Assembly: GCA_947379755.1 (NCBI GenBank)
Contig: CANCOC010000019.1
Coordinates: 1-44,746 of the forward strand
From: Alcaligenaceae bacterium
GTDB lineage: Bacteria; Pseudomonadota; Gammaproteobacteria; Burkholderiales; Burkholderiaceae_B
Direction of reading: 5' to 3'
DNA: 44,746 bases
In this document: one piece after another, positions 24,841-38,668 of the stretch
Layout: the number at the start of each line of letters is the position of its first letter
Numbering within the stretch: position 1 is the first letter of the stretch
Notes under the pieces: model-generated
What the model was told of the DNA's origin: nothing
Seen by the model: only the letters and a program-made list of their open reading frames with translations
Database searches by the model: none
Translations under genes and position numbers: made by a program

Positions 24841-25833
24841 ATGAATGTGAAAAAAATCGTCATCGTCACGCCCGCCAAAGCGGGGACATTGCATGGCAAC
24901 CGGACAACCGCCCTGCGCTGGGCGCAGCATCTGACCGCACTCGGACATCAAGTCGAACTGGTCACACAATGGCGCCATGGTGACCAGGACCTCATGATTG
25001 CCTTGCACGCAGCACGCAGTCACGATTCGATTCATGCATGGAAATCTTGTGCGCCTCAAAAGCCTCTGGTGCTCATGATGACCGGCACCGATATCTACCG
25101 CGACTTGCCTGCAGGCAATCCACAGGCGCTGGCATCTTTGCAACTTGCTGACTACCTCGTTGTTCTGCAGACCGAAGCACTCAAGATGATTCCGCATGCG
25201 CTGCAGGGTCGCACGCGAGTCATTTTTCAATCGATTCAGTCCGGTCGCAAACTTTTCCGACACAATTCGTGCTTTCTCGTAACAGTGATCGGTCACCTGC
25301 GCGCAGAGAAAGATCCTTTTCGGATTAATCAAGCCTTGCAATACTTGCCCGCCTCCAGTCGAATCCAGGTGAGGCATCTGGGCATGGCGATGGATGATGT
25401 TTTTGCACGGCAAGCCGAAAAAAATCATATCCAGGATTCACGTTACCGCTGGATTGGACAACGATCGCATCCCAACACCATGCGCTGGCTGGCAAGCAGT
25501 CACCTCATGGTGATCTCAAGTCTGATGGAGGGAGGAGCCCACGTCGTCTCCGAGGCGATCGCACTGGGGATTACTGTCATTGCCTCGGATATCGATGGTA
25601 ACCGTGGCTTGCTTGGAGAGGACTACCCGGGACTGTATCGTGTGGGCGACGGTCAGGCACTTGCAGCGCTGCTGCACCGGGCGGAAACAGAGCCCGCCTA
25701 CCTCGACTTGCTGGAATCAGCCATACAGACTCGGCAGGCTCTAATTATGCCCGCACGGGAGCGTGCGTCGATTGCCAGCCTGCTTGACGAGCTTGACACA
25801 CCAGATCGCAGCGCAGTTCATCCACGGGCATAA
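24841..25833 (+). CDS. senB: Selenoneine biosynthesis selenosugar synthase SenB (GT-B glycosyltransferase)
   Basis: A 330-residue GT-B glycosyltransferase. The N-terminal IVIVTPAKAGTLHGNRTTALRWAQHL, the internal LMMTGTDIYRDLP and the C-terminal EGGAHVVSEAIALG nucleotide-sugar motif fit the SenB family, which joins selenophosphate to a UDP-sugar to give a 1-seleno-sugar and pyrophosphate-type leaving groups. Assignment rests on these motifs plus the neighbours egtD, selD and senA. It is convergent with egtD and overlaps it by 16 nt, so it is not in the same transcript as the other sen genes. No strong ribosome site precedes the ATG; GTG at 24847 is an alternative. Confidence 0.85.
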   Translation: MNVKKIVIVTPAKAGTLHGNRTTALRWAQHLTALGHQVELVTQWRHGDQDLMIALHAARSHDSIHAWKSCAPQKPLVLMMTGTDIYRDLPAGNPQALASLQLADYLVVLQTEALKMIPHALQGRTRVIFQSIQSGRKLFRHNSCFLVTVIGHLRAEKDPFRINQALQYLPASSRIQVRHLGMAMDDVFARQAEKNHIQDSRYRWIGQRSHPNTMRWLASSHLMVISSLMEGGAHVVSEAIALGITVIASDIDGNRGLLGEDYPGLYRVGDGQALAALLHRAETEPAYLDLLESAIQTRQALIMPARERASIASLLDELDTPDRSAVHPRA

Positions 25834-26759
25834 AACACAGCAAACCACTGGTTCGGATCTGTCCAAAATTGCGAAGAAGAAAACCCCGCCTGCAACAACA
25901 TTTCCGCAAAGAGCTCAGTCTGATATTTATAGCTGTTTTCGGAATGAATCGAGTCACCCGAAGCAAAAAACCTTTCGCCTGCCGACCAGCCAGGGCCACT
26001 GGGCCAGTGGACAGTCACATTGCGTCTCGCATAGAGATGCATTTCTATCCGTGATAAGGCCTGATTAAAAAAGGCATCATGTCCCCAGTCCTCAAGCTTG
26101 AAGTCACTGCCCAACAGAGAATTGATATGCGTGAGCATATTGCGGTTAAAAGCCGCGGTGATGCCGAGCTCATCGTTATACGCTGCATGAAGTACAGAAT
26201 TTTCCTTGACCAGATCAACCCCGATCAGCAAACCACCCGGGGTGCCTCCCCCCTTCTGTCCAACGAGTTGCCGCATACGCTTGAGCAACTCAATCGCCTG
26301 ACCAGGATCAAAATTTCCGATCGAGGAACCAGGATAAAAACATACTTTTTTTCCTTCACCCAGGTCTGTCGGCAGGTCAATGACCTGCGTCAGATCCGCA
26401 GCCAGCGACTGCATGCGAATATCGGGAAACGAAGCCCGCATTTCTTGGAGCGCACTTTCCAGAAACTCTGCAGAGATATCCACAGCGACATACTGTTTCG
26501 GACGTACGCTGGCAAACAGATCACGCGCCTTTTGACAATTTCCGGCGCCCAGATCAACCAAGGTTGCAACTTCGCCAAGAGCGCACGCAATCTCTTGACG
26601 ATATACAGCCATCACGCTTTGCTCGGTACGTGTCGGATAGTATTCAGGCATGAGGGTAATGAGCTCGAACAGGCGACTGCCCACCCCGTCATAAAAGTAC
26701 TTGGGTTCGATGCGTGCGGGCTCTGACAGCAGCCCTTCAATAAGCGTAAGCATTGGCAT
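25818..26759 (-). CDS. egtD: L-histidine N-alpha-trimethyltransferase EgtD
   Basis: A 313-residue SAM-dependent enzyme that trimethylates histidine to hercynine, the shared precursor of ergothioneine and selenoneine. The N-terminal KYFYDGVGSRLFELITLMPEYYPTRTE block, the SAM motif LVDLGAGNCQKA, CFYPGSSIGNF and the late NQALSRIEMHL and NSYKYQ segments are diagnostic of EgtD. It is the last gene of the minus-strand sen directon, 24 nt after the second PhnE-like permease. In the model it supplies hercynine to SenA. Its 3' end overlaps senB by 16 nt in convergent orientation. Confidence 0.95.
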   Translation of the reverse strand: MPMLTLIEGLLSEPARIEPKYFYDGVGSRLFELITLMPEYYPTRTEQSVMAVYRQEIACALGEVATLVDLGAGNCQKARDLFASVRPKQYVAVDISAEFLESALQEMRASFPDIRMQSLAADLTQVIDLPTDLGEGKKVCFYPGSSIGNFDPGQAIELLKRMRQLVGQKGGGTPGGLLIGVDLVKENSVLHAAYNDELGITAAFNRNMLTHINSLLGSDFKLEDWGHDAFFNQALSRIEMHLYARRNVTVHWPSGPGWSAGERFFASGDSIHSENSYKYQTELFAEMLLQAGFSSSQFWTDPNQWFAVFYARG

Positions 26760-26783
26760 GAGGTCTTTTTATATACAACTGGA

Positions 26784-27596
26784 TTAACCAGCAGCGTGAA
26801 TTTGAATGCGCCGCATTTTTGCACTCAGAAAATCGACGATGATTACCAGACCAAACATCGCGATCAAGACAGTCGATGCCTGAGGCTCGTGCAACAAGGA
26901 TAACTCGTAGTACAGAATCTGACCGAGTCCGCCGGCACCGACAAAACCCAGAATAGTCGCCATCCGGATATTCATTTCCCATCGATACAACGCATAGGAA
27001 AGGAGCTGAGGCGCGGCATCAGGCAGCGTTCCATAAAGAAACGCAGTCAGCGGACGCGCACCCGCCAGTACGAGCGCATCGGCAGGGACCGGCGATCGGT
27101 TCTCCAGCGTCTCTGCAAACAATCGGCCAAGCACGCCGATCGTGTGCAAGGCCAGGGCCAGTGTGCCTGCAAACGGTCCAAGCCCAACCAGCAATACCAT
27201 CAGGGTGGCCCAAACCAGCTCTGGGACTGCACGTAAGAAATTTAATACAAACCGAACCGTCTGCTGTGCGGGCTTGCCAAAACGATTGGCTGCGGGTAAT
27301 GCCAGCAGCAAACCGAAGAGCGCTGCAATCAGGGTAGCAATCGCTGATATCGCCAGCGTCTCAAGCGTGCCTCGCGCCACTTTCATTAAAAAGGACGTAC
27401 TGAAGTCCGGTGGAAAAAACCTGACGACAAAGCCAGCGATACTTGAAAATGACTTGGGTGTGAACAGTTCGAAAGGGTTGAAGGCGAGAAAGTAAAAACT
27501 GGCGATCACTGCGGCCAGAATCATGACCGCGCAGACCAATCCCCTGACTGGCAGGGCTGGTTTTGGATCACGCATGACGTGTTCAGCCACCTTCAT
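26784..27596 (-). CDS. phnE: PhnE-family ABC permease (second copy) of the sen locus
   Basis: A 270-residue inner-membrane permease with about six helices and the PhnE-type features FLRAVPELVWATLMVLLVGLGPFAG, the EAA loop PADALVLAGARPLTAFLYGTLPDA and IRMATILGFVGAGGLGQILYYE. It starts 4 nt inside the preceding permease gene (ATGA) and probably forms a heterodimer with it. In typical phosphonate systems one or two PhnE proteins work with PhnC and PhnD; here no C-P lyase gene is present and neighbours point to a selenium compound. Ligand assignment is inference. Confidence 0.88.
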   Translation of the reverse strand: MKVAEHVMRDPKPALPVRGLVCAVMILAAVIASFYFLAFNPFELFTPKSFSSIAGFVVRFFPPDFSTSFLMKVARGTLETLAISAIATLIAALFGLLLALPAANRFGKPAQQTVRFVLNFLRAVPELVWATLMVLLVGLGPFAGTLALALHTIGVLGRLFAETLENRSPVPADALVLAGARPLTAFLYGTLPDAAPQLLSYALYRWEMNIRMATILGFVGAGGLGQILYYELSLLHEPQASTVLIAMFGLVIIVDFLSAKMRRIQIHAAG

Positions 27597-28426
27597 GCCA
27601 GCGCCTTTCTGATAAAAAAACTGATTGCGTCAGCCATTAAGACCAATAGCAGGAACACAATCACGATGCTTGAAACTTCACTGCCATTGAGCATCTTCAT
27701 TGATTGATCCATCAATTGCCCGAGACCGCCCGCCCCCACAAAGCCCATGATGACTGAAGCGCGTACCGCGCACTCCCAGCGGTAAACCGTATAGGATGCC
27801 AGCTCCTGTGCGGCACCTGGCAACAATCCGTATAAAAAAGCCATGCTGCGCCCACTGCCCGTCAGCAACAACGCGCGAGCAGCACGGGTGTCACTGGCTT
27901 CGAGTATTTCTGAGTAGACCTTGCCCAGCATGCCTGAGTAAGTAATGGCGAGGGCCAGGACACCAGCTGCCGGTCCGAGTCCAAAGACACGAACGAGCAA
28001 CAGCGCCCAGACGATTTCGGGCACACCGCGCAAAAATAAAAGCAACAGTCGTGCCGCCGCGCGTAAATACTGCCCGGACAATCTGCCAGGGCCGGGCCCC
28101 AAACGTGAGATCGACAGGCTGTGCGTCAGCAACAGACTCAGAGGCACAGCCAGCGCAATCGCGAGCGCAATCCCCGCAGTCGCCATCGCCAGGGTTTCTA
28201 TTGCCGCCTTCAGAAGCAGTACAAGGAACTCCTGCCCTGTTTGCGGCGGGAAAAACTGTCTGAGGAAATTGCCAAAGACTTCAAGATTGTTTGTATCGAA
28301 CAGCGCCGACAAATCAAACCCGGCAATGTTGAACAACGGCCATAAAATCAGTATGCCGAGGAGCACACCCATCAGGCGATTGCGTGCGGCAGGATCATGA
28401 CGTACGGGTTGGGAAGGGTTCAACAT
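27593..28426 (-). CDS. phnE: PhnE-family ABC permease (first copy) of the sen locus
   Basis: A 277-residue permease paralogous to the following gene: FLRGVPEIVWALLLVRVFGLGPAAG, the loop ARALLLTGSGRSMAFLYGLLPGA, and VRASVIMGFVGAGGLGQLMDQS. About six membrane segments are visible, the first shortly after an N-terminal basic stretch. It follows the ATPase gene after 13 nt and overlaps the second permease by 4 nt. Presence of two different PhnE subunits suggests a heterodimeric pore. Confidence 0.88.
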   Translation of the reverse strand: MLNPSQPVRHDPAARNRLMGVLLGILILWPLFNIAGFDLSALFDTNNLEVFGNFLRQFFPPQTGQEFLVLLLKAAIETLAMATAGIALAIALAVPLSLLLTHSLSISRLGPGPGRLSGQYLRAAARLLLLFLRGVPEIVWALLLVRVFGLGPAAGVLALAITYSGMLGKVYSEILEASDTRAARALLLTGSGRSMAFLYGLLPGAAQELASYTVYRWECAVRASVIMGFVGAGGLGQLMDQSMKMLNGSEVSSIVIVFLLLVLMADAISFFIRKALA

Positions 28427-28439
28427 AAACTCAGAACAT

Positions 28440-29258
28440 TCACGACAGTGGCCTGATCACTGGATCCTGAGTGCGATCCGCCTCAGATATCCCTTGCCTG
28501 GGAATCACACTCGCTTCCGACGCATAGAGATCCAGCAAGCGCTCTGTACTGACATCTGCAGGCGCGCAGTCAAAGGCAATCTCTCCTGCCTTGACGCCGA
28601 CGATCCTGTCAAACCATTTCATGGCGATATCCACAGCATGCAAACTGGCCACTAGCGTGACACCTCTCTGGGTAGCGGTCTGGTGCAGGCTCGCAATCGT
28701 CGTATCCGACAAGGTGGGGTCCATGGCGGATACGGGTTCATCGGCAAGGATCAGGTCAGGTGCCTGATACAGCACGCGCGCGACGCCCACCCGCTGCAAT
28801 TGCCCCCCCGACAACTCATCACAGCGGTCAAACAGTCGATCAGCAATTTCGAGTTGTGCGAGAACGTTCCGCGCACCGGTCATGTCAAGGGGATACATCA
28901 AAGAAAGCAATGCGCGCAGACTGGACCACTGCCCTAACTTACCTGCCAGCACGGCTGTCACGACACGCTGCTTGGGCGGAATCGGTGCATGCTGGTGCAC
29001 CATTCCGATTTTTGACCTGACCGTGCGTAATGCTGATTTCTTTAACTTCCACACGTCCTGGCCATGGATCAAAACCTGGCCTGAACTCGGACGCAGGGCT
29101 GTCGCCAACAAATTCAACAGCGAGGTTTTACCTGCACCTGAAGGTCCAATAATGGCAATTGTTTCACCATGCATTGCCTTCAAAGAAACATTGTTTAATG
29201 CACGCTGACCATTGCCATGGATCAGCGATACGTCAATGAGTTCAAAACCTGGAGTCAC
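28440..29258 (-). CDS. phnC: PhnC-family ABC transporter ATPase of the sen locus
   Basis: A 272-residue ATPase with Walker [15 protein letters not shown], signature [15 protein letters not shown], Walker [14 protein letters not shown] and a [18 protein letters not shown]-loop region typical of PhnC. It starts at GTG, four nucleotides inside the end of the binding-protein gene (GTGA), indicating coupled translation. It energises the two PhnE-like permeases. Confidence 0.9.
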
Positions 29259-30145
29259 TTGATCAGTCCGGCAGAGCGCGCTGCTTTTTCAATCCCATCG
29301 TAATTGGAAGCTTGAGTTGGAATAAATCTCGAAGCACGCTGCAGATCCAGCAATTGCTTTTGACCGGCATCCGAGGCATCCAGTTTTAAAAATGCTGCAG
29401 TAATCTTTTTGATCAGCGCTGGATCCAGATTGCCACGCACGGTCCAGTTATAGTCAAAATAGGTAGGCGTCGTGTCGAGCACTCTGACCTTCTTGGCATT
29501 TTCATTGCCCGTTTCAACCAGCTTGTCCCACACAGAAGCATTCAGCACTCCCGCCTGGGCTTTACCACTGGCCACGAAGGCAACAGTCGCATCATGCGCA
29601 CCCGAAAAGGCAACATTTTTAAAGTCTGTATCCGGATTGATCCCTGCTTGCAGCAAATAGTATCTTGGCATCAAATGTCCGGAGGTTGAGGACGGCGCAC
29701 CAAAGACGAAGGTCTTGCCTTTCAGATCGGATAGGGATTTTGCATCGCTATTGATGGGAACGATATACCTGCTGGTAAAAATTTCGTCTTCCTTGCGCTG
29801 TACGATCGGCAAAGCCGTGCCATTGGTCCGGATTTTGGCCTGAACATAGGTAAAGCCACCCAGCCACGCCATATCAATCTTGTCTGTGGCCAGTGACTCC
29901 ACCACCGCGGCGTAATCCGTCACGGGAATAAACTCAACTTGCATACCGATTTCTTTTGCAAGATACTCACCAAGTGGCTTGAACTTGCGCTGCAATTCAG
30001 TTGGAGATTCATCAGGGATCGCTGAGACGCGCAGGACGCTCTGGGCGTGCGCGGCAGATAAGCCCAGCGTACAGGCCACGACCAAACCGAGAGCGGTGAT
30101 CGTGCGGGCGATCGTATTTTTTAAAGATGCTGAACGTAAAATCAT
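29255..30145 (-). CDS. PhnD-like binding protein, putative selenium-oxyanion ABC receptor
   Basis: A 296-residue periplasmic protein with a signal peptide (…GLSAAHAQ, about 34 residues). The mature protein, [31 protein letters not shown], followed by [29 protein letters not shown] and [17 protein letters not shown], has the PhnD/phosphite-receptor fold. From memory, a PhnD-like family found beside selD is labelled as putative selenate receptor in protein family collections; this sequence fits that description, but ligand specificity has not been checked. It lies 51 nt after selD. Selenite, selenate or phosphonate binding would all be compatible with the fold. Confidence 0.85.
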
Positions 30146-30196
30146 AATGAGCCCAAATGGTTAAATGGCAAAAAAAATACTCAGCCTGTGCGAGGG

Positions 30197-31243
30197 TTAT
30201 TCGTGGACAACGACGCCACTACCTGCCACAACCTGGCCGATCCTGCGCGCATCGTCAAACCCATGCTTTTTGAATAAATCAAGCACCTCCTGCTCAGACT
30301 CAGGGGAGCAGGCCAGGAGCAGCCCACCGCTCGTTTGAGGATCCGTTAACAGGTTTTTTTGCCATTCTTCAATTCCTGTATCCAGGTGCACATCCGCACC
30401 GAATCCTGTCCAGTTGCGTCCTGATGCACCGGTCACCACGTTTTGCCTGGCAAAATCGATCGCTTGTGGAATCAGGGGAATATTCTTCCACTGGAGCTGG
30501 GCCTGGACCTTGGCGCCGCGACACATTTCGAGCAAATGACCTGCCAGGCCAAAACCCGTCACATCAGTCAATGCATGCACGCCAGGCATATTGGCCAGCG
30601 CCACACCCGGGGTATTGAGCTTGGTGGTATAGCGAATCATGGCTGCGTAGCCTTCATCAGAGAGTTTTTGCTGTTTAAGCGCCGCACTCAATACTCCCAC
30701 GCCAAGCGGCTTGCCCAGAATCAGGCTGTCACCCACACGTGCGCCACTGTTGCGTTTGAGTTTGTCAGGGTGAACAATGCCGAGAACCACCAGACCGTAA
30801 ATCGGCTCAACCGTATCTATAGAATGGCCACCAGCAATAGGAATGCCTGCTTCGGCACAAACCGCCTCCCCGCCCGCGGTGATTTTCTGAATGACCTCGA
30901 TTGGCAGTACGTTAATTGGCATCCCGAGCAAAGCCAGGGCAAAAATTGGCTGGCCGCCCATGGCGTAGATATCTGAAATCGCATTGGTTGCGGCAATACG
31001 TCCAAAGTCATATGGATCATCCACGATCGGCGTAAAGAAATCGGTCGTCGCAATAATGGCCTGATGCTCATTGAGCTGGTAGACCGCAGCGTCCTCATTG
31101 TTCTCACTACCCGCCAGTAACGCCGCAGGCAAATTACGAATGGGAGAGGCCTTGAGAATATCGCTCAGGACGCCCGGTGCAATTTTGCAACCACAGCCCC
31201 CGCCATGTGCCAGCGAGGTCAGTCGAATTTCTGATGTGTTCAT
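30197..31243 (-). CDS. selD: Selenophosphate synthase (selenide, water dikinase) SelD/SenC
   Basis: A 348-residue enzyme that makes selenophosphate from selenide and ATP. Cys17 and Lys20 of the E. coli enzyme are kept at the same positions (HGGGCGCK), so this is the cysteine form with no selenocysteine. TTDFFTPIVDDPYDFGRIAATNAISDIYAMGG and LLTDPQTSGGLLLA are also conserved. AGGA lies about 8 nt before the ATG. It follows senA after 37 nt. No selA, selB or selC is in the window, and the setting suggests the selenophosphate goes to SenB; in this pathway the enzyme is called SenC. Confidence 0.96.
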   Translation of the reverse strand: MNTSEIRLTSLAHGGGCGCKIAPGVLSDILKASPIRNLPAALLAGSENNEDAAVYQLNEHQAIIATTDFFTPIVDDPYDFGRIAATNAISDIYAMGGQPIFALALLGMPINVLPIEVIQKITAGGEAVCAEAGIPIAGGHSIDTVEPIYGLVVLGIVHPDKLKRNSGARVGDSLILGKPLGVGVLSAALKQQKLSDEGYAAMIRYTTKLNTPGVALANMPGVHALTDVTGFGLAGHLLEMCRGAKVQAQLQWKNIPLIPQAIDFARQNVVTGASGRNWTGFGADVHLDTGIEEWQKNLLTDPQTSGGLLLACSPESEQEVLDLFKKHGFDDARRIGQVVAGSGVVVHE

Positions 31244-31280
31244 GCTTGTATTCCTATTAATCGTGACTGATCAAACTCAA

Positions 31281-32435
31281 TCACTTTGCGCAGGTTCTGA
31301 ACCCGCAAAAAATATCTGAACGATTTTTCTGATAAAAATTTCTGTAGCCTGAACGCCGAAGTCGTTCAGGCGTGACCCAGCTTGCACCTCGCAAGACCTG
31401 ATACGTGCCATCGAACCATGGTGCTGAATAATCCCGATACGGATCAGCTGAAAAACCTGCATAGGGCAAAAATGTAGAAGATGTCCACTCCCAGGCATAC
31501 GAGTGCGCAACACTACCCGCGCGCCACTGGGGGCTGACAGACAGATACTGCCACTCGGCTTCAGTGGGCAACCTTCGATTGGCCCAGCTGCAATAGTCCT
31601 GCACAAGATCATAGCTGAGATGCATGGCAATCGCTTGTGGATCAACCGCGAACCAACCATCAAACTGCCGCTCAAACCAGCCTTGAGAACGCAGTTCCCA
31701 ATACTCTGGGCGCAAAGTCGTGCCGCTTTGGTCTATAAAACTTATCACTTCCTGATTGCTGACCATGCGGGGAGAAATAGAAAAAGCTTCCAGTTCAACG
31801 CGTTGGCTGCCTTTCTCATTATCAAAGAAAAATCCCTCACCAGGCTGTGCACCAAGTTCGATGGAACAACAATCAAAATGCAGGTCACCGTTCATGGCAA
31901 GGGAATGATTGAGCTGATTGGCCCTCAGGCGTTTGGTGGCAAGTCTCTGGCGGAATTTATCCGGCAGAGCATAACCAAGACTTTGCCGGGTATAACAAAA
32001 GGCTTCGTTATGCATGTCCTGATGAAAAACCGATAGCTGAATAAAATACGATTGCTCGGCACTCAATGGTGCTGCAAGTAAGGCTTGTGTCTTTGCATGG
32101 ACGTCAACAAGATAAGCACGTGTCGTGGCGATGTCTGGCAGGCACAGGCCCCAGCGTGTGCTGTGTGCAATTGCCGAGGAGTCATACAACCGATCTGCAT
32201 TTTCGAGAAGGGATGGTTCGGTCTGAACGCCATGCCTGTGCAGCCATAACTCATGAAACCACGCCACATGTCCAAGCTCCCACAAGGGAAGATTGACACG
32301 CGCGTGCTGACTGACTGCATACATGCTCTGCGAGAGGTCATCCATCAGGCATAGCGTATTCTGCTGGGTATCGTCCAGCCACTGGGCCAGTGTGTGCATG
32401 TCCGGAACTGGCAGATAGTCATTGAAATCCGTCAT
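31281..32435 (-). CDS. senA: Selenoneine synthase SenA (EgtB-like non-haem iron enzyme)
   Basis: A 384-residue two-domain protein. The N-terminal DinB-like helical domain holds the iron ligands: H56 in ELGHVAWFHE, and H138 and H142 in HQDMHNE (HxxxHxE). The C-terminal formylglycine-generating-enzyme-like domain has RLPTEAEWQY, WEWTSSTFLPY, QVLRGASWVTP and YRNFYQKNRSDIFCGFR. Both EgtB and SenA have this layout; SenA is preferred because of the adjacent selD and nearby senB. It would couple hercynine with the selenosugar using O2. AGGAAG lies 8 nt before the ATG, and the start is one nucleotide after the stop of the transporter gene (TGATATG), so the transporter and enzyme are co-expressed. Confidence 0.88.
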   Translation of the reverse strand: MTDFNDYLPVPDMHTLAQWLDDTQQNTLCLMDDLSQSMYAVSQHARVNLPLWELGHVAWFHELWLHRHGVQTEPSLLENADRLYDSSAIAHSTRWGLCLPDIATTRAYLVDVHAKTQALLAAPLSAEQSYFIQLSVFHQDMHNEAFCYTRQSLGYALPDKFRQRLATKRLRANQLNHSLAMNGDLHFDCCSIELGAQPGEGFFFDNEKGSQRVELEAFSISPRMVSNQEVISFIDQSGTTLRPEYWELRSQGWFERQFDGWFAVDPQAIAMHLSYDLVQDYCSWANRRLPTEAEWQYLSVSPQWRAGSVAHSYAWEWTSSTFLPYAGFSADPYRDYSAPWFDGTYQVLRGASWVTPERLRRSGYRNFYQKNRSDIFCGFRTCAK

Positions 32436-32436
32436 A

Positions 32437-34071
32437 TCAGGATCTTCCTGTGGCGGCCTGGCGATGAGGGTCTGCGGTCAACCCTGCAGGCACGAGCCAG
32501 ACCTCGAGATATTCAAACACACCATGCACAAGCAAGGCCAGTGCTGCGGCCGGGATGGCACCTGCCAGTAACATCGCATGATCGTTCAACGCGAGACCCT
32601 GGGCAATTCGCTCGCCAAAACCTCCTGCTCCGATAAAGGCGGCGATGGTCGCCGTGCCAACATTGATAATCGCCGACGTCTTGATGCCAGACAATATGCT
32701 GCGTGCAGCCAGTGGAAGTTCGATGTGAAACAGTCGATACATGCCACCTAAGCCGAGCACGGCAGCCGACTCGTTGATTTCGGCCGGGATATCACTGAGT
32801 CCAGAATATGTGTTGCGTACGATCGGTAACAAGCCGTAGAGAACCAGTGCACAAATAGCAGGAACTACGCCAATCATGCCCAGGAGCGGAATGAACAAGG
32901 CAAAAAGTGCAAGTGAAGGAATGGTATGAATCGCACTGATCAGACCCAGTACAAAATGACGCGTCGCCGAAAAACGACTCGCCATGACACCCAACGGAAT
33001 GCCCAGTACGATCGAGATCCCAAGCGAGACCAGCACAAGCAGGACATGTTCCCGTGTCAGTCGCCAGAAATCGCTGCCAAATAATATATTTAAAAAATTA
33101 CGTGAACTGCTTGCTGATGATGCAACGGCGACCGCCAGACCGCTTGCACGAAGCGATCCCTGATTATTTATAAAATCACGTGCAACCTGCTCAACACCGA
33201 TTTTGCCTTGTTCGGCCTGACTATTCATATGAATCATGTCGCGCACGCTGATCGCCTGGGTCAGCTTGCCCAGTGCTGACCAGGTCAGCGGCAGCCTGCC
33301 GGACAAATCGGCGCGATACAGCAACACTGCATCATAAGAAGGAAAGTATCCCAGATCATCACGCAAAATCCTGATCGGCTCATGCAGGAGCATTGCATCG
33401 GTCGTGTAAGCGTCCATCACGTCGACCTGCTTTGCTTGTATTGCCCCATAAATCAGCCCGTGATCGATGCCCCGCGGTCTTTGTTGTGGCAAAGCATAGG
33501 TGGCTTGCAAGCCTGGCCAGCCATCCTGACGTCCAATGAACTCCTGTGTCAGTCCCAGCCTGAGTTCTGGATGCTTTTTCAGATCCGAAATTGATTCAAT
33601 CCTGAGTTGCTCGGCCAGATCTTCACGCATCGCCAGCGCATAGGTATTGTTAAACCCCAGCGCTACGCTTGCGGCCAGCCCCATTGGAGCAAGCAACTGA
33701 TTCATCTCATTGATATTGAGTGCAGCCTGGCTATGCAGAATTTCGCGCACGATCGTGCCCGTGTACTCGGGGTAGATGTCAATCTCGCCAGATTTAAGCG
33801 CAGAGATCAAAATACCCGTGTTACCAAGCCCTGGTCGCAAGACGACTCTGGCCTCCCCGACCTGCCTCGCCACGTTCGCGATCACCTCACCCAGAATATA
33901 GGATTCGGTAAAACGCTTGGATCCCACAGTCAGAGTGGGCCTCGTGGCAACATGATCAGATATTTGCGCGACAGCGTGCTGCGACAAGATGGCCATTGCA
34001 AACAAAGCAAGACAGGCCAGCGCCCAGCCTCGCACTGCGCAAAACCTGGCGCATTTCAGCACGGAACGCAT
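32437..34071 (-). CDS. Binding protein-permease fusion of OpuB/EgtU type, permuted domain order
   Basis: The ATG at 34071 overlaps the stop of the ATPase gene (TGATG); a longer frame to 34188 would run inside that gene. The 544-residue product has a signal-like segment (about 1-36), then a glycine-betaine-type receptor domain (about 45-300: VGSKRFTESYILGEV, DIYPEYTGTI, GFNNTYALAM, FIGRQDGWPGLQ, DVMDAYTTD, DDLGYFPSYDAV), then a permease domain with about five or six helices (about 340-530; EAA loop at 433-455; FIGAGGFGE). Fused permease-receptor proteins of this class import betaines, choline or ergothioneine (EgtU), but there the permease comes first. Its place directly before senA suggests a trimethylated histidine betaine as ligand. 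Confidence 0.87.
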   Translation of the reverse strand: MRSVLKCARFCAVRGWALACLALFAMAILSQHAVAQISDHVATRPTLTVGSKRFTESYILGEVIANVARQVGEARVVLRPGLGNTGILISALKSGEIDIYPEYTGTIVREILHSQAALNINEMNQLLAPMGLAASVALGFNNTYALAMREDLAEQLRIESISDLKKHPELRLGLTQEFIGRQDGWPGLQATYALPQQRPRGIDHGLIYGAIQAKQVDVMDAYTTDAMLLHEPIRILRDDLGYFPSYDAVLLYRADLSGRLPLTWSALGKLTQAISVRDMIHMNSQAEQGKIGVEQVARDFINNQGSLRASGLAVAVASSASSSRNFLNILFGSDFWRLTREHVLLVLVSLGISIVLGIPLGVMASRFSATRHFVLGLISAIHTIPSLALFALFIPLLGMIGVVPAICALVLYGLLPIVRNTYSGLSDIPAEINESAAVLGLGGMYRLFHIELPLAARSILSGIKTSAIINVGTATIAAFIGAGGFGERIAQGLALNDHAMLLAGAIPAAALALLVHGVFEYLEVWLVPAGLTADPHRQAATGRS

Positions 34072-34820
34072 CACGCATCGCTCCAGAGCGCATCCGAGCT
34101 GCTGCGCCACGCAGCGACAAACCGCTCGACATAGCGTGTTGCGGGATGCTGGATCAAGTCCTGCAAGCTGCCGTCCTGCACAATACACCCCTGATCCATC
34201 AACACAAGATGACTGGCCAGTCTGCCGGCTTCGTTCAGATCATGCGTGACAAGTAAGACGGTTTTATTCAGGCGCGCAAACAATTCCTTGAGTTCCTGCT
34301 GCAAATCACTACGAATGATTGGATCGAGCGCCCCCAGAGGCTCGTCGAGCAAAAGTACCGGTGGATCGAGCATCAGCGCACGCATCAGTGAGGCGCGCTG
34401 GCGTTGCCCGCCTGACAACTGATGAGGATAGCGTTGCATCATGCTCAGGGGCAAGTCAACCAGATGACAAAGATCCTCGAGACGCTGCTCAAGCAGCCCT
34501 GGATTCATTTTTAAATAACGTCCAGCAATCAGTACGTTGCCAGCAATATCGAGATGTGGAAAGAGCCCGCCCTGCTGCACCATAAAGCCTATCTGACGAC
34601 GATAAACGGAGATGTCGGACTGCTGGACATTCATATTGCCGACCAGGACCGAGCCCTGATCAGGCACAATCAGACCACTGATCAGCCTCAAAATGGTGGA
34701 TTTACCCGAGCCACTGGAGCCGATCAAAGCGGTCGTTGCGCCCTGCGGCACGCTCAAAGTGATGTTTTTAAGCTCAAAACCGTCACTTAATCGCTTGGAA
34801 ACGTCCAAAACCCTTATCAA
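34071..34820 (-). CDS. ABC ATPase of osmoprotectant/ergothioneine (ProV/OpuBA/EgtV) type
   Basis: A 249-residue ATPase with Walker A GSSGSGKSTILRLI, FMVQQGGLFPHLDIAGNV, signature LSGGQRQRASLMRAL, Walker B LLLDEPLGALD and TVLLVTHDLNEA. The start is taken as TTG at 34820 since GGGAG lies 5 nt upstream; the open frame extends further but runs through the intergenic region. It lacks the C-terminal CBS domains of ProV, as in OpuBA/EgtV short forms. It heads the nine-gene sen directon and its stop overlaps the fused permease start. Confidence 0.88.
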   Translation of the reverse strand: MIRVLDVSKRLSDGFELKNITLSVPQGATTALIGSSGSGKSTILRLISGLIVPDQGSVLVGNMNVQQSDISVYRRQIGFMVQQGGLFPHLDIAGNVLIAGRYLKMNPGLLEQRLEDLCHLVDLPLSMMQRYPHQLSGGQRQRASLMRALMLDPPVLLLDEPLGALDPIIRSDLQQELKELFARLNKTVLLVTHDLNEAGRLASHLVLMDQGCIVQDGSLQDLIQHPATRYVERFVAAWRSSSDALWSDA

Positions 34821-34903
34821 AATGACTCCCGATTCATTGACGACTATACAGTTTAAGAGTCTATATCTATAGTGTTGCAGATATTCAGACAAAAATTTCA
34901 ACC
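34821..34903. promoter_or_regulatory. Divergent control region between the sen directon and the Fsr-like gene
   Basis: An 83-bp AT-rich spacer between the TTG start of the ABC ATPase and the MFS gene. It contains TTGACG (34837-34842), a possible -35 for the + strand gene with a poor -10, and three direct copies of CTATA at 34844, 34861 and 34867, with TATAGT on the far side. I cannot name a regulator; no regulator gene is adjacent. Confidence 0.35.
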
Positions 34904-36148
34904 ATGAACAACACAGCGACTCCAACTGCCTTGCCTGCCGCCACCGCCGCGCCTGCAAGTGGCATCACCGCTCAGAGCGCTGCGATCCCGATCCTGATTT
35001 CACTGAGCTTTTGCCATTTGCTCAATGATCTCATTCAATCGTTGATTCCAGCCTTGTATCCCTTGTTCAAGCAGGAGTTTGATCTGGATTTTGCCCAGAT
35101 CGGAATCATTACCCTGGCCTTTCAGATGACGGCCTCGCTGCTGCAGCCAACAGTAGGCTTTTACACGGATAAGCGGCCGCAGCCCTACTCACTTGCGCTT
35201 GGCATGTGCTCCACACTGATCGGGCTGTTGCTGCTTTCGGTCGCACATAACTATCTTGCCATTCTGTTTGCCGCCGCGCTGGTCGGTACGGGCTCTGCAA
35301 TCTTTCACCCCGAAGCCTCTCGGGTCGCGCGGATGGCCTCAGGTGGTCGCTATGGCACTGCACAGGCCTTTTTTCAAGTGGGGGGCAACCTGGGGCAGGC
35401 GGTCGGCCCGTTGCTTGCAGCCTTTATTGTTTTGCCACGCGGCCAGGGCGCGATTGCCTGGATCTCGCTGGCCGCGCTCGTAGCGATGGGTTTTCTGACC
35501 CGTATCGGTCTATGGTACCGCGCACGTTCACGGCCCGGCCATGGGCCTGCGCGTGCCACGACTGCATCCCACGGTTTATCTCACGCCCGGGTTCTGTTCC
35601 TGGTGAGCGTGCTGATGTTGCTGCTGTTCTCCAAGAACGTCTACAGCTCGAGTCTGACTTCCTTCTTTACTTTTTATCTGATCGAACGATTCAATCTGCC
35701 CGTGCAAGCCGCTCAGGTCCAACTGTTTATTTTCATGGCCTCGATTGCAGTCGGCACCCTGCTTGGTGGCGCGCTGACAGACCGGATCGGTCGCCGCCCC
35801 ATGATCTGGATATCAATTCTGGGTGCCCTGCCCTTTACACTGGCACTGCCCTATGCGGACTTGTTCTGGACTGGCGTGCTCACGATTATCATTGGCTTGT
35901 TGATGGCCTCGGCCTTTCCGGCGATCCTGGTCTTTGCACATGAACTGATTCCGGGTCGTGTGGGTCTGGTCTCAGGGATGTTCTTTGGTTTTTCGTTCGG
36001 ACTCGGCGGACTCGGTGCAGCGGCGATGGGTTATATCGCAGACTCGCATGGCATCGCATTTATTTATCAGCTCTGTTCATACCTGCCGGCGCTTGGACTG
36101 GTCGCATGGTTCCTGCCAAATCTCAATTCACTCAAAGCAAAAGCCTGA
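34904..36148 (+). CDS. MFS transporter, fosmidomycin-resistance (Fsr) type
   Basis: A 414-residue carrier with about twelve helices. The segment SFCHLLNDLIQSLIPALYPLFKQEFDLDFAQIGIITLAFQMTASLLQPTVGFYTDKRPQPYSLALGM is characteristic of Fsr (only key parts quoted: HLLNDLIQSLIPALYP, DKRPQPYS). The second half has GALTDRIGRRPMIW. Fsr proteins export fosmidomycin and related phosphonates in E. coli. It is divergent from the sen directon with only 83 bp between starts, so it may share control with it; whether it exports a metabolite of that locus is open. Confidence 0.88.
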   Translation: MNNTATPTALPAATAAPASGITAQSAAIPILISLSFCHLLNDLIQSLIPALYPLFKQEFDLDFAQIGIITLAFQMTASLLQPTVGFYTDKRPQPYSLALGMCSTLIGLLLLSVAHNYLAILFAAALVGTGSAIFHPEASRVARMASGGRYGTAQAFFQVGGNLGQAVGPLLAAFIVLPRGQGAIAWISLAALVAMGFLTRIGLWYRARSRPGHGPARATTASHGLSHARVLFLVSVLMLLLFSKNVYSSSLTSFFTFYLIERFNLPVQAAQVQLFIFMASIAVGTLLGGALTDRIGRRPMIWISILGALPFTLALPYADLFWTGVLTIIIGLLMASAFPAILVFAHELIPGRVGLVSGMFFGFSFGLGGLGAAAMGYIADSHGIAFIYQLCSYLPALGLVAWFLPNLNSLKAKA

Positions 36149-36162
36149 CAGCCGAATCACCC

Positions 36163-36699
36163 ATGCATACATTTAGCGATCTTCCCAACGTATATGAGTT
36201 TCTTCATACGCTGTTTCAAGGCCTGCATAACAGAGACCTCTTCCCTCTGGGTCTGAATTTGACGCTGATCACGATGCTGACGATTCATGGCATGTTTGTA
36301 CTGATGCTGACGGTCATGTTTCATCGCATCGTGGAAAAGTACGTCAAACCGGGCTCGATGCTGATGGCAAGTATTCTGTATTTTTTTGTCATCAATATGA
36401 TTTTTGCCAGCCACATTATTGACATTCTTGTCTGGACGTACATCACCGTATTTCTCAAGGCCATACCCGGAACGCTCAGTGCATTTTTCTTTGTTGGCGA
36501 AATGTACACCACGCTTGGTTTTGGTCAGTTCGTCATTGATCCGGTTTGGCGCTCACTACCAATCCTGATTGCGATCTCAGGCATTTTTTCGTCCGCCATC
36601 TCTGGCGCGGCGCTCTACTCAATGCTCAATGCCCTGTTAATTAATCAAAAAAAACCCTTGCCGCTCAACGTGGCGCAGCATGAATGCAGTACTGTCTAG
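36163..36699 (+). CDS. Ion-channel-like membrane protein with atypical selectivity filter
   Basis: A 178-residue membrane protein starting at MHTFSDLP (an earlier in-frame ATG at 36106 lies inside the MFS gene). Four hydrophobic segments are visible (about residues 32-52, 65-85, 92-105 and 130-155). Between the last two lies FVGEMYTTLGFGQF, which resembles the pore helix and TVGYGD filter of two-TM potassium channels but reads TLGFGQ. It may be a member of the bacterial ion-channel (Ion_trans_2) families. It follows the Fsr-like gene after 14 nt. No regulatory domain is attached. Function is not established. Confidence 0.6.
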   Translation: MHTFSDLPNVYEFLHTLFQGLHNRDLFPLGLNLTLITMLTIHGMFVLMLTVMFHRIVEKYVKPGSMLMASILYFFVINMIFASHIIDILVWTYITVFLKAIPGTLSAFFFVGEMYTTLGFGQFVIDPVWRSLPILIAISGIFSSAISGAALYSMLNALLINQKKPLPLNVAQHECSTV

Positions 36700-36756
36700 A
36701 CTCAAAACAATAATCACATTCTTCATCCGAGACTCAATTTACATAAGAGGCGTTCT

Positions 36757-37524
36757 ATGTCCGTACATCAATTAAACACTACACAACAAGCTGATCCTGT
36801 GCGTCAGATCAAAATCCACCTGGCGGCTGCCAATCGGCTAGCCGTGCAGGATGAGCTGGACGAAGGTATCGACAACCACTTTACGGTGGCCGTGCCAGGC
36901 CAGAAAGATCGCTACCTTATTCTGCCGTTTGGCTTTCACTGGTCCGAGGCGCGTGCCAGTGACATGATCATGTTCAACGAAGCGGGAGAAACAATCGAGG
37001 GCAATGGTGTAGTTGAACTCTCCGCCCAATGCATTCATGCGCCGATCCATCGCATTACAGGCGCGAATGTTGTGCTGCACACTCACCAAACCTGGGCAGT
37101 TGCGCTCAACATGCTCAAGGATAATCGGCTGCTCCCAGCCAGCCAGACCGCAGCTTTTTATCATGGCCTGGTCGCCTATGACGACACGTATACCGGTACG
37201 GCCGACTTTCTGAGTGAAGGTGAGCGCCTGGCTGCAGCGATCGGGGATAAAAAAGTGCTGTTCATGAAAAACCACGGCGTGCTTGTCGTAGGCGACACCG
37301 TCGCCCAGGCCTACAAGCGTCTGTATAAACTTGAACGCGTCTGTCGCGCGCAGGTCCTCGCCATGAGCACAGGCAAGGAAATACAGCTGTTGTCAGAAGA
37401 AGTAATCGAAGCTGTCAAGCGCCCTCCTTCAGATGATCGCCATACTCGCAGTGGTCGTGACAATCTGTACTTCGAGGCCATGATGCGCGTGCTGGATCGT
37501 GACCTGCCCGGCTACGCTGACTGA
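36757..37524 (+). CDS. Class II aldolase/adducin family protein
   Basis: A 255-residue soluble protein. The zinc-binding HTHQTWA and the later FMKNHGVLVVG are typical of the class II aldolase/adducin fold, as is GIDNHFTVAVPG at the N-terminus (GNxS position altered). The family contains fuculose- and ribulose-phosphate aldolases or epimerases and decarboxylases; the usual phosphate-binding residues are not obvious, so a sugar-phosphate aldolase role is doubtful. It ends 88 nt from the convergent dioxygenase gene. Confidence 0.85.
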   Translation: MSVHQLNTTQQADPVRQIKIHLAAANRLAVQDELDEGIDNHFTVAVPGQKDRYLILPFGFHWSEARASDMIMFNEAGETIEGNGVVELSAQCIHAPIHRITGANVVLHTHQTWAVALNMLKDNRLLPASQTAAFYHGLVAYDDTYTGTADFLSEGERLAAAIGDKKVLFMKNHGVLVVGDTVAQAYKRLYKLERVCRAQVLAMSTGKEIQLLSEEVIEAVKRPPSDDRHTRSGRDNLYFEAMMRVLDRDLPGYAD

Positions 37525-37551
37525 TCCACGTCACAGCAGGGTCGGCCGGGA

Positions 37552-37613
37552 CCTGACAACAAGCGGGTCAGGCCGTGGGAGTGGGCAGGACGGACGTTCT
37601 CGGTCGTCCTCCC
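37552..37613. terminator. Two stem-loops between convergent genes
   Basis: CCTGAC (37552-37557) pairs with GTCAGG (37567-37572). AGGACG (37587-37592) pairs with CGTCCT (37605-37610), extended by GGG/CCC across one bulged base. Neither is followed by a T-run on either strand. They fill the gap between the aldolase-family gene and the dioxygenase gene and probably help end both transcripts. Confidence 0.4.
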
Positions 37614-38668
37614 TATAGCGGATATAGCGGCGCGTTGACTGCGACGTCTGTATGCATCACGCCACCGCGCATCCCGGGTTCGACAGAGCCATAGCGCTGT
37701 GCAAAAACAGGCGGCAAAGCGCGTGCCTCGGGGGACGAGAGCCAAAGCCGTAATAAATGTCGCTTCTGATCCGGTTGCGTCCAGTCCTCAAACGCAGTGC
37801 GATCATGCAGCAGGGTATGGTTGTGCACAAACTGCATATCACCCGGCTCAAGTCGCATTAAAAAATTCAGCCGCGTATCGTTTGCCAGATGGTCAAAGTA
37901 ATCGAGCGCCTCGACATGCAGGGGACTGAGCCGCATGGCCTGAGCAAAGCGCTGGGCCGAATCAATGTATTGGCGCTGATAGATTGTTGACATCAATCCT
38001 TCGTACCAGTTGAATACCGGAATTTCAAAAAAGGGCTGATGTCCAGCCGGAACCTCGCCTCGGCGATCGGTTGCAATCGGATCAAACAGCGCCGCAGCCA
38101 GATGAGGCACCTCCCGACGCATCTCGTTGTAGATCGTGTTCGAGGAGACCAGAGCAGAATCGCCTCCTGCCCTGGCCTGCTGCAGACAGAGCAAGCCGAC
38201 GATATCGGAGGAATCCGTGTGATAGGTTTGACGTTCATGCGTCTGATAAATGCGCACATTCGGATCATTGGCCTGCAAGCCCATATCCATCACGTGCCCC
38301 AGTAAATGCCCTTTGGCATTTTGCGGTCGCGGTTGACCCAGATGCGTGCCGAGTCCATAAAAAACTGCAGCACTGATCTCGCGCGACCATTCACGCACCG
38401 GCAAGGACTTGATCAATGCAAAACCGGGGCCATGAATCAAATGGTCATGAATCCCCCTTAGCCGTATTGCCAGGCCAGGTAATACGAAATTTGCCCGGCT
38501 GATGCGGCTGACATCAGGGCTTTGATCCAGGCAGCGATGCGCAGCCCGTTCGAGCTCAAGGGTGTCCTCATCATTGAGTGCAAACTGCCAGTTTTGTGCA
38601 GCCTGCGCTGCGGGGCCAAACCAGGCCGTCGGCCCCTGAATTGTTGCGGGCAGCTCATTGATCAACAT
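37613..38668 (-). CDS. TauD/TfdA-family Fe(II)/2-oxoglutarate dioxygenase
   Basis: A 351-residue oxygenase. The iron facial triad is likely H150 and D152 (QTYHTDSSDI) with H288 in HNHTLLHDRTAF, followed by the 2-oxoglutarate-binding Arg in KRHLLRLWLS. PGFALIKSLPV and YGLGTHLGQPRPQN are typical early blocks. Such enzymes hydroxylate small carboxylates, betaines or sulfonates using O2. It is divergent from a Bug receptor and convergent with the class II aldolase-family gene, suggesting one catabolic unit. Substrate unknown. Confidence 0.9.
   Translation of the reverse strand: MLINELPATIQGPTAWFGPAAQAAQNWQFALNDEDTLELERAAHRCLDQSPDVSRISRANFVLPGLAIRLRGIHDHLIHGPGFALIKSLPVREWSREISAAVFYGLGTHLGQPRPQNAKGHLLGHVMDMGLQANDPNVRIYQTHERQTYHTDSSDIVGLLCLQQARAGGDSALVSSNTIYNEMRREVPHLAAALFDPIATDRRGEVPAGHQPFFEIPVFNWYEGLMSTIYQRQYIDSAQRFAQAMRLSPLHVEALDYFDHLANDTRLNFLMRLEPGDMQFVHNHTLLHDRTAFEDWTQPDQKRHLLRLWLSSPEARALPPVFAQRYGSVEPGMRGGVMHTDVAVNAPLYPL

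Follow-up and report, generated by a model that had tools for sequence, protein, structure and literature searches.

A selenoneine biosynthesis locus with two putative ABC importers in an Alcaligenaceae bacterium

Can selenoneine, or the precursor from which it is made, be imported by bacteria? The question is raised by a block of ten genes in the window, that is, the whole stretch of 44,746 nucleotides analysed here, which is contig 19 of a genome assembly of an Alcaligenaceae bacterium (GCA_947379755.1; 3.37 Mb, 154 contigs, 94.6% complete). In this block, the genes for the enzymes SenA, SenB, SelD and EgtD stand together with those for two ATP-binding cassette (ABC) importers, one related to phosphonate importers (PhnDCEE) and the other to betaine importers. 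All ten open reading frames (ORFs) were confirmed between positions 24841 and 34826, at the place and on the strand assigned to each in a preliminary description of this DNA. The block is probably a locus for selenoneine production with supply lines of its own, namely an importer of a selenium oxyanion and an importer of a betaine; a complete circuit for acquiring, making and reclaiming a selenium antioxidant is conceivable but doubtful.

The selenosugar synthase gene senB (24841-25833, plus strand; TIGR04348, 373.5 bits, cut-off 300), the selenophosphate synthetase gene selD, or senC (30197-31243, minus strand; TIGR00476, 428.7 bits, cut-off 125), and egtD, encoding the histidine N-alpha-methyltransferase of hercynine synthesis (25818-26759, minus strand; TIGR03438, 353.6 bits, cut-off 290.9), all encode proteins that pass their NCBIfam cut-offs, and the translation of senB contains EGGAHV, which is named as the SenB motif in PMC10891094. 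The selenoneine synthase gene senA (31281-32435, minus strand) encodes a protein with 383.1 bits against NF041186, below the cut-off of 420; this cut-off looks too strict for the group, since, among the 25 genomes of the genus in which SenB occurs along with a SenA match, just 8 reach it. The shortfall is the point in favour of the alternative that SenA is the sulfur enzyme EgtB and that the locus makes ergothioneine, which we regard as exceedingly improbable given the score of 187.2 bits with the EgtB model TIGR03440 (cut-off 360), the presence of SenB and SelD in the locus, and the position of the protein in the SenA tree. Compared with solved relatives, the window protein scores 228 bits with SenA, 182 with OvsA and 93 with EgtB.

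The tree comprises 120 rows and was built by a quick method with support from the Shimodaira-Hasegawa-like approximate likelihood-ratio test (SH-aLRT) only. The preliminary description had singled out a grouping of SenA with EgtB as the outcome that would refute it; the tree instead puts the window protein in a SenB-linked group of 109 rows that includes the solved SenA 8ryz, which we take to be the enzyme of Variovorax paradoxus, albeit on a different branch from it. Within this group, SenB is encoded within 4 kb in 95 rows and not in 11, three rows being unlabelled; two rows counted as lacking SenB (G008 and L026) do have it, at a distance of more than 4 kb. The EgtB-type group of 11 rows is separated by a long branch with a support of 100, and has EgtD within 4 kb in 10 rows and SenB in reach of two (L157 and L081); OvsA forms a long branch the placement of which is unsure. 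The assignment of the window protein as SenA, apart from EgtB, is supported by these comparisons of sequence, and its identification as EgtB was rejected on the tree. In the regions L157 (genome G057) and L081 (HR33), EgtB-type and SenA-type genes lie within a few kb of one another, so that a single region may serve the synthesis of ergothioneine as well as of selenoneine.

Together, the scores of SenB, SelD and EgtD and the tree position of SenA uphold the initial interpretation of the block as a selenoneine locus. The genome encodes a single SelD above the cut-off and one SelU (SelA was not found in the window genome), so that SelD probably serves both selenouridine and selenoneine and is probably not dedicated to the latter. 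A second NF041186 match with E <= 0.001 is absent from the window genome in its 94.6% complete assembly, and accordingly no EgtB that would consume hercynine was found.

The nine minus-strand genes are tightly packed, with gaps of 2 nt between the ‘EgtV-like’ ATPase and the ‘EgtU-like’ importer genes (with ATG at 34068), 1 nt between the latter and senA, 37 nt between senA and selD, 51 nt between selD and the PhnD-like gene, 13 nt between the PhnC-like gene and the adjacent PhnE-like gene, and 24 nt between the PhnE-like genes and egtD, and with 4-nt overlaps in the PhnD/PhnC and PhnE/PhnE pairs; we infer that they are co-transcribed. The earlier proposal of one transcript for all genes has to be narrowed because senB lies on the opposite strand, converging on egtD with a 16-nt overlap. 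Promoter-like sites are not more numerous than in shuffled sequences (7 versus 7.8), and terminator-like sites (21 versus 11.6 in shuffles, standard deviation 3.5) are mostly within genes.

Loci were fetched for the best 80 of 582 relatives, many of them cut by contig ends. The identical ten-gene order is found in another genome of the same genus (G008, locus L107), and the order SenA-SelD-PhnD-PhnC-PhnE-PhnE-EgtD with convergent SenB in a Burkholderiaceae metagenome-assembled genome (L026), where the fetched stretch contains no betaine importer; since the order recurs in full or in part in these two loci, the block is more than a chance arrangement. In two named Polynucleobacter and one Burkholderiaceae (L029, L030, L088), the order is PhnDCEE-SenA-SelD-EgtD, with SenB convergent and the betaine importer fusion behind SenB, and in two further members of the genus (G006 and G009; L113 and L114) both importers lie beside SenA, SenB and SelD in yet another arrangement. 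At the score thresholds used here, the 80 loci include seven with a PhnD-like gene, ten with the betaine fusion and three with both.

The proposed selenium supply line centres on the PhnD-like periplasmic binding protein (29255-30145, minus strand), a candidate selenium-oxyanion binder that passes the cut-off of TIGR04553 (371.8 bits versus 250), an NCBIfam hypothetical equivalog named ‘putative selenate ABC transporter substrate-binding protein’. With the phosphonate PhnD model TIGR03431 it scores 196.5 bits, below the cut-off of 261.1, and the phosphonate cut-offs are also missed by the PhnC-like ATPase (28440-29258, minus strand; TIGR02315, 227.5 bits, cut-off 266.1) and PhnE-like permease 1 (27593-28426, minus strand; TIGR01097, 198.5 bits, cut-off 216.7), that is, by three of the four subunits; PhnE-like permease 2 (26784-27596, minus strand) passes TIGR01097 with 243.6 bits. 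On contig 18 (L177), the same genome carries an operon with phnJ and further genes of carbon-phosphorus (C-P) lyase, as judged by reading of the ORF list, and this operon has, by names read from the same list, an apparent PhnC, PhnD and PhnE of its own. The set at the sen locus should therefore not be needed for phosphonates, and classical phosphonate import was rejected as the leading reading on the combined grounds of this operon and the missed cut-offs.

An AlphaFold2 (AF2) model of the PhnD-like protein (8 sequences; mean predicted local distance difference test score, pLDDT, 85.4) has 5lq8, 7s6g and 5lq5 as its best Foldseek matches and shares the fold of the phosphite binders PhnD1/PtxB (Pm_PhnD, 5lq5; PtxB, 5o2j). 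The ten pocket residues compared (D45, Y78, F123, S153, T154, S155, H184, N202, D231 and Y232) are all identical to those of the phosphite-binding Pm_PhnD. The pocket points to a small oxyanion, with selenite favoured, and a selenite-like oxyanion would fit it: hydrogen selenite is pyramidal and resembles in shape the anion bound by Pm_PhnD. In that protein, according to PMC5700983, from which the roles of the pocket residues are also taken, the bound anion has three oxygens and a hydrogen as its fourth group, and a tyrosine cap shuts the pocket over it. The window set differs from PhnD1/PtxB systems in having two permease genes, in its sen-locus context and in not lying beside C-P lyase genes.

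The association of this family with selenoneine genes was assessed in 61 genomes, 33 with SenB and 28 without. A TIGR04553 protein above the cut-off is encoded in 21 of the former and two of the latter (p = 4e-6), and outside the genus in 4/7 SenB genomes versus 0/22 others (p = 0.0015). It lies on the SenA contig in G000, G006, G008 and G009, is probably linked to SenA in G046 across a contig break inside selD, and occurs on the SenA contig of G018 as a fragment below the cut-off; the remaining 16 SenB genomes that encode it do so on a different contig. Two pocket types can be distinguished among the TIGR04553-type rows by three residues that change together, D/N/D (DND), represented by the window protein with D45, N202 and D231, and E/D/N (EDN), seen in Polynucleobacter. 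Eight of the 10 DND rows are found at sen loci, one of them by inference across a split contig, compared with 4 of the 19 EDN rows, some of the remainder being on short contigs (Fisher p = 0.0045, with rows that are related).

Several observations detract from the assignment of a selenium cargo. TIGR01098, a broad subfamily model for phosphate/phosphite/phosphonate, is likewise passed by the binding protein (246.2 bits versus 112.05), and all ten pocket residues recur in the Synechococcus PhnD solved with phosphate (7s6g), so that they do not tell phosphite, phosphate, selenate and selenite apart and selenite is a lean. Inside the genus, the co-occurrence is not significant (17/26 SenB genomes versus 2/6 others, p = 0.19); the Fisher values overstate the evidence because the genomes are related; and, of the 21 genomes that encode both, 17 have the TIGR04553 protein and SenB on different contigs, some of them just a few kb long. 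Alternatively, PhnDCEE could import phosphorus in the form of phosphite, phosphate or phosphonate and be in the sen locus by happenstance. Besides the shared pocket and the broad subfamily match, this alternative is favoured by the facts that none of the 18 solved relatives is described as a selenium binder and that 15 EDN-type relatives are not at sen loci as fetched. Among eight fetched loci with PhnDCEE sets away from sen genes, no neighbouring selenium genes were recognised by eye. Of the 2-hydroxyacid dehydrogenase matches, 10 of 13 were scanned, and no listed family is named for phosphite dehydrogenase. Phosphorus import is nonetheless unlikely in our estimate, given the separate C-P lyase operon, the missed phosphonate cut-offs, the tracking of SenB by TIGR04553 and the recurrence of PhnDCEE in sen loci of differing layout. 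The idea of a selenium-oxyanion importer, put forward in the preliminary description, is thus strengthened by family, pocket and co-occurrence, its novelty being limited by the name that TIGR04553 already bears.

The second importer consists of an OpuB/ProX-class protein labelled ‘EgtU-like’ (32437-34068, minus strand) and a betaine-type ABC ATPase labelled ‘EgtV-like’ (34071-34826, minus strand; PF00005; best NCBIfam match TIGR01186, proV, 214.5 bits, below the cut-off of 326.6). The start of the ATPase gene at 34826 is a chosen position and uncertain; that of the EgtU-like gene is more plausibly ATG 34068 than GTG 34188, a signal-peptide-like stretch having been read by eye after the ATG. 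The 583-aa EgtU-like ORF has the OpuAC binding domain (PF04069, residues 85-341) fused before the permease (PF00528, residues 396-562), as do all ten fusions found in the fetched loci, an order opposite to that of the permease-first EgtU relative L103.

Its pocket was compared at 15 positions (SpEgtUC numbering) in 33 rows, 23 of them sen-linked, the window included, and 10 unlinked. The window protein keeps K242, T275, T296, Y341, E375, R379, D381, Y419 and Y443, and replaces I243 by Arg, G244 by Phe, F293 by Tyr and Y337 by Phe; at 244, 293 and 337, the three positions that are diagnostic, its Phe/Tyr/Phe match the ProX of A. fulgidus (AfProX, 1sw1) and give it a pocket of the ProX type. In PMC9732360, the source of the residue roles, I243 is the sulfur contact, the Y-to-F switch and G244 are treated as ergothioneine determinants, and H. 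pylori-type relatives contribute to ergothioneine uptake with lower affinity. The label EgtUV, originally given to the pair, is not borne out, as the window protein carries ProX-type residues at the three positions that confer ergothioneine specificity on SpEgtUC.

It is improbable that this importer is a genuine EgtUV for ergothioneine uptake, even though the window protein shares with the EgtU of S. pneumoniae and H. pylori the domain-permease fusion, the quaternary-ammonium cage with its carboxylate residues and the fold of the binding domain. In an AF2 model of the fusion (mean pLDDT 76.4, predicted template-modelling score 0.52), the binding domain has its highest template-modelling (TM) score by target length, among the 50 matches listed, to unliganded H. 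pylori EgtU (8dp6, 0.92), compared with 0.75 for ergothioneine-bound 8dp7 and likewise 0.75 for the SpEgtUC complexes. The aromatic cage and carboxylate residues, however, are general to betaine importers, because AfProX has nearly all of them; the four replacements in comparison with SpEgtUC and the reversed domain order, with the binding domain first, also argue against an EgtU proper (H. pylori EgtU was compared by fold only).

More serious, if still the lesser prospect, is the alternative that this is an ordinary osmoprotectant importer (of glycine betaine, choline or proline betaine) without a role in selenoneine metabolism. Sequence searches with the EgtU-like protein place ProX above EgtUC, one relative encoded on a plasmid carries the annotation of a glycine betaine binding protein, and the pocket with its ProX-type residues is shared by linked and unlinked relatives: 12 of the 15 positions are identical across the 33 rows, the slight variation at 243, 274 and 339 is independent of sen linkage, and no selenium-specific pocket was found in the sen-linked betaine domains. 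With the 23 linked and 10 unlinked rows alike at the specificity positions, the import of a histidine betaine, as first suggested, stays a conjecture, and the sequence does not by itself reveal which ligand is bound.

Genomic linkage argues for a role alongside the sen genes, and, together with the fusion to the permease, it distinguishes the window protein from ProX/OpuB systems. Of the 26 SenB genomes in the genus, 24 have the EgtU-like gene, whole or as a piece at a contig end, on the same contig as SelD or SenB, the exceptions being G021, with a fragment on another contig, and G023, with none. Across the 61 genomes, fragments counted, it is present in 30/33 with SenB versus 4/28 without, namely G036, G045 and G058, the NF041186 matches of which fall in the EgtB tree group, and G014, with a 321-bit NF041186 match outside the tree sample and EgtD nearby. 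A SenA- or EgtB-like NF041186 match, taken as full length if it scored at least 300 bits and accepted for G019 although split in two, accompanies the EgtU-like gene in 33/34 genomes, compared with 7/27 genomes without that gene. The fusion also occurs near SenA-group genes in four distant phyla (Armatimonadota, Acidobacteriota, Myxococcota and Poribacteria), and the high TM-score to H. pylori EgtU, in its unliganded form, likewise speaks against a plain osmoprotectant importer. In three Poribacteria loci (L069, L095 and L097), SenA-group proteins lie beside EgtD and a betaine importer with ATPase, and SenB was not found in the fetched stretch.

The linkage is looser across the order, which tells in favour of an osmoprotectant importer. 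Among 250 genomes of the order, one of them from this genus and with at most five EgtU-like candidates scored per genome, 57 have the EgtU-like gene, 70 have SenB and 35 have both (Fisher p = 1.4e-9); in nine of these 35 the two are on one contig, and only in the window genome are they within 10 kb, with distances of 17 to 35 kb in four others. Within the fetched stretches, no ATPase gene of the EgtV type adjoins the fusion in any of 10 loci of the genus that have the other type of sen locus (L108-L115, L125, L145) or in any of the four Polynucleobacter-type loci (L027, L029, L030, L088); such a gene is near the fusion in the window, in G008 and G003, and in six loci from distant phyla. L027, which comes from Polynucleobacter hallstattensis, contains the fusion, and PhnDCEE is absent from its fetched stretch. 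In the EgtU tree, the label ‘sen-linked’ changes five times, at least three of these changes being forced by starred branches, and they could be gains or losses.

The trees further suggest a composite origin of the block. Window SenA, which is 60% identical to that of G008, groups with the Polynucleobacter-type SenA (support 99), and the 19 other SenA rows of the genus belong to a fully supported group of 27 rows that holds 8ryz. The same split is seen in the SelD tree, where the window, G008 and G003 stand apart from the nine other rows of the genus, with two changes forced. Beyond G008 and G003, the betaine fusion has its nearest rows in G058 and G051, which belong to other families, rather than in Polynucleobacter (the join with G058 has a support of 94/92 and is not starred). 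Since the fusion has a history different from that of SenA and SelD, the block was probably assembled from parts with different histories.

In G003 (L106, 4434-7981; L143, 1-1239), the flanks are the same and EgtV-EgtU-SelD and SenB are kept; EgtU is followed by SelD with no SenA in between, and the Phn genes and EgtD were not recognised on the rest of the short contig. Either the selenoneine locus is partial in this genome or the assembly is at fault. Upstream of the block (window positions 34904-38668), genes for a major facilitator superfamily transporter, a small membrane protein and a TauD-like protein, as read from their translations, are conserved in G008 and G003.

The proposed working of the locus combines family-level reactions with the two predicted transport steps. 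PhnDCEE would import a selenium oxyanion, most likely hydrogen selenite, captured in a small buried pocket; after reduction to selenide, SelD would form selenophosphate, from which SenB would make the selenosugar, and EgtD would methylate histidine to hercynine, to be joined with the selenosugar by SenA to yield selenoneine. The betaine importer with its ATPase would bring in a trimethylammonium carboxylate, for which hercynine and released selenoneine are plausible candidates.

The sen cluster of Variovorax paradoxus was reportedly described by Kayrouz et al. in 2022. As given in PMC9814287 and PMC10891094, it consists of SenA, SenB and SenC/SelD, the same three selenium enzymes as in the window, to which the present block adds EgtD and two importers. 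SenABC are already known, and NCBIfam already names the family of the binding protein for a selenium role. Not found in print were a block with two importers, its return in loci of other layouts, the division into DND and EDN pockets, and an ‘EgtU’ without the ergothioneine pocket of SpEgtUC; no report of transporters in sen loci was found in the open-licence literature, supplements being outside its scope, and the word ‘transport’ occurs 0 times in the accessible parts of the SenB papers PMC10891094 and PMC10702425. According to the review PMC13188914, a specific selenium transporter of high affinity has yet to be identified in prokaryotes, which makes the PhnDCEE importer worth testing. The locus offers a concrete candidate for a dedicated bacterial selenium uptake system, in the form of a short and testable set of genes.

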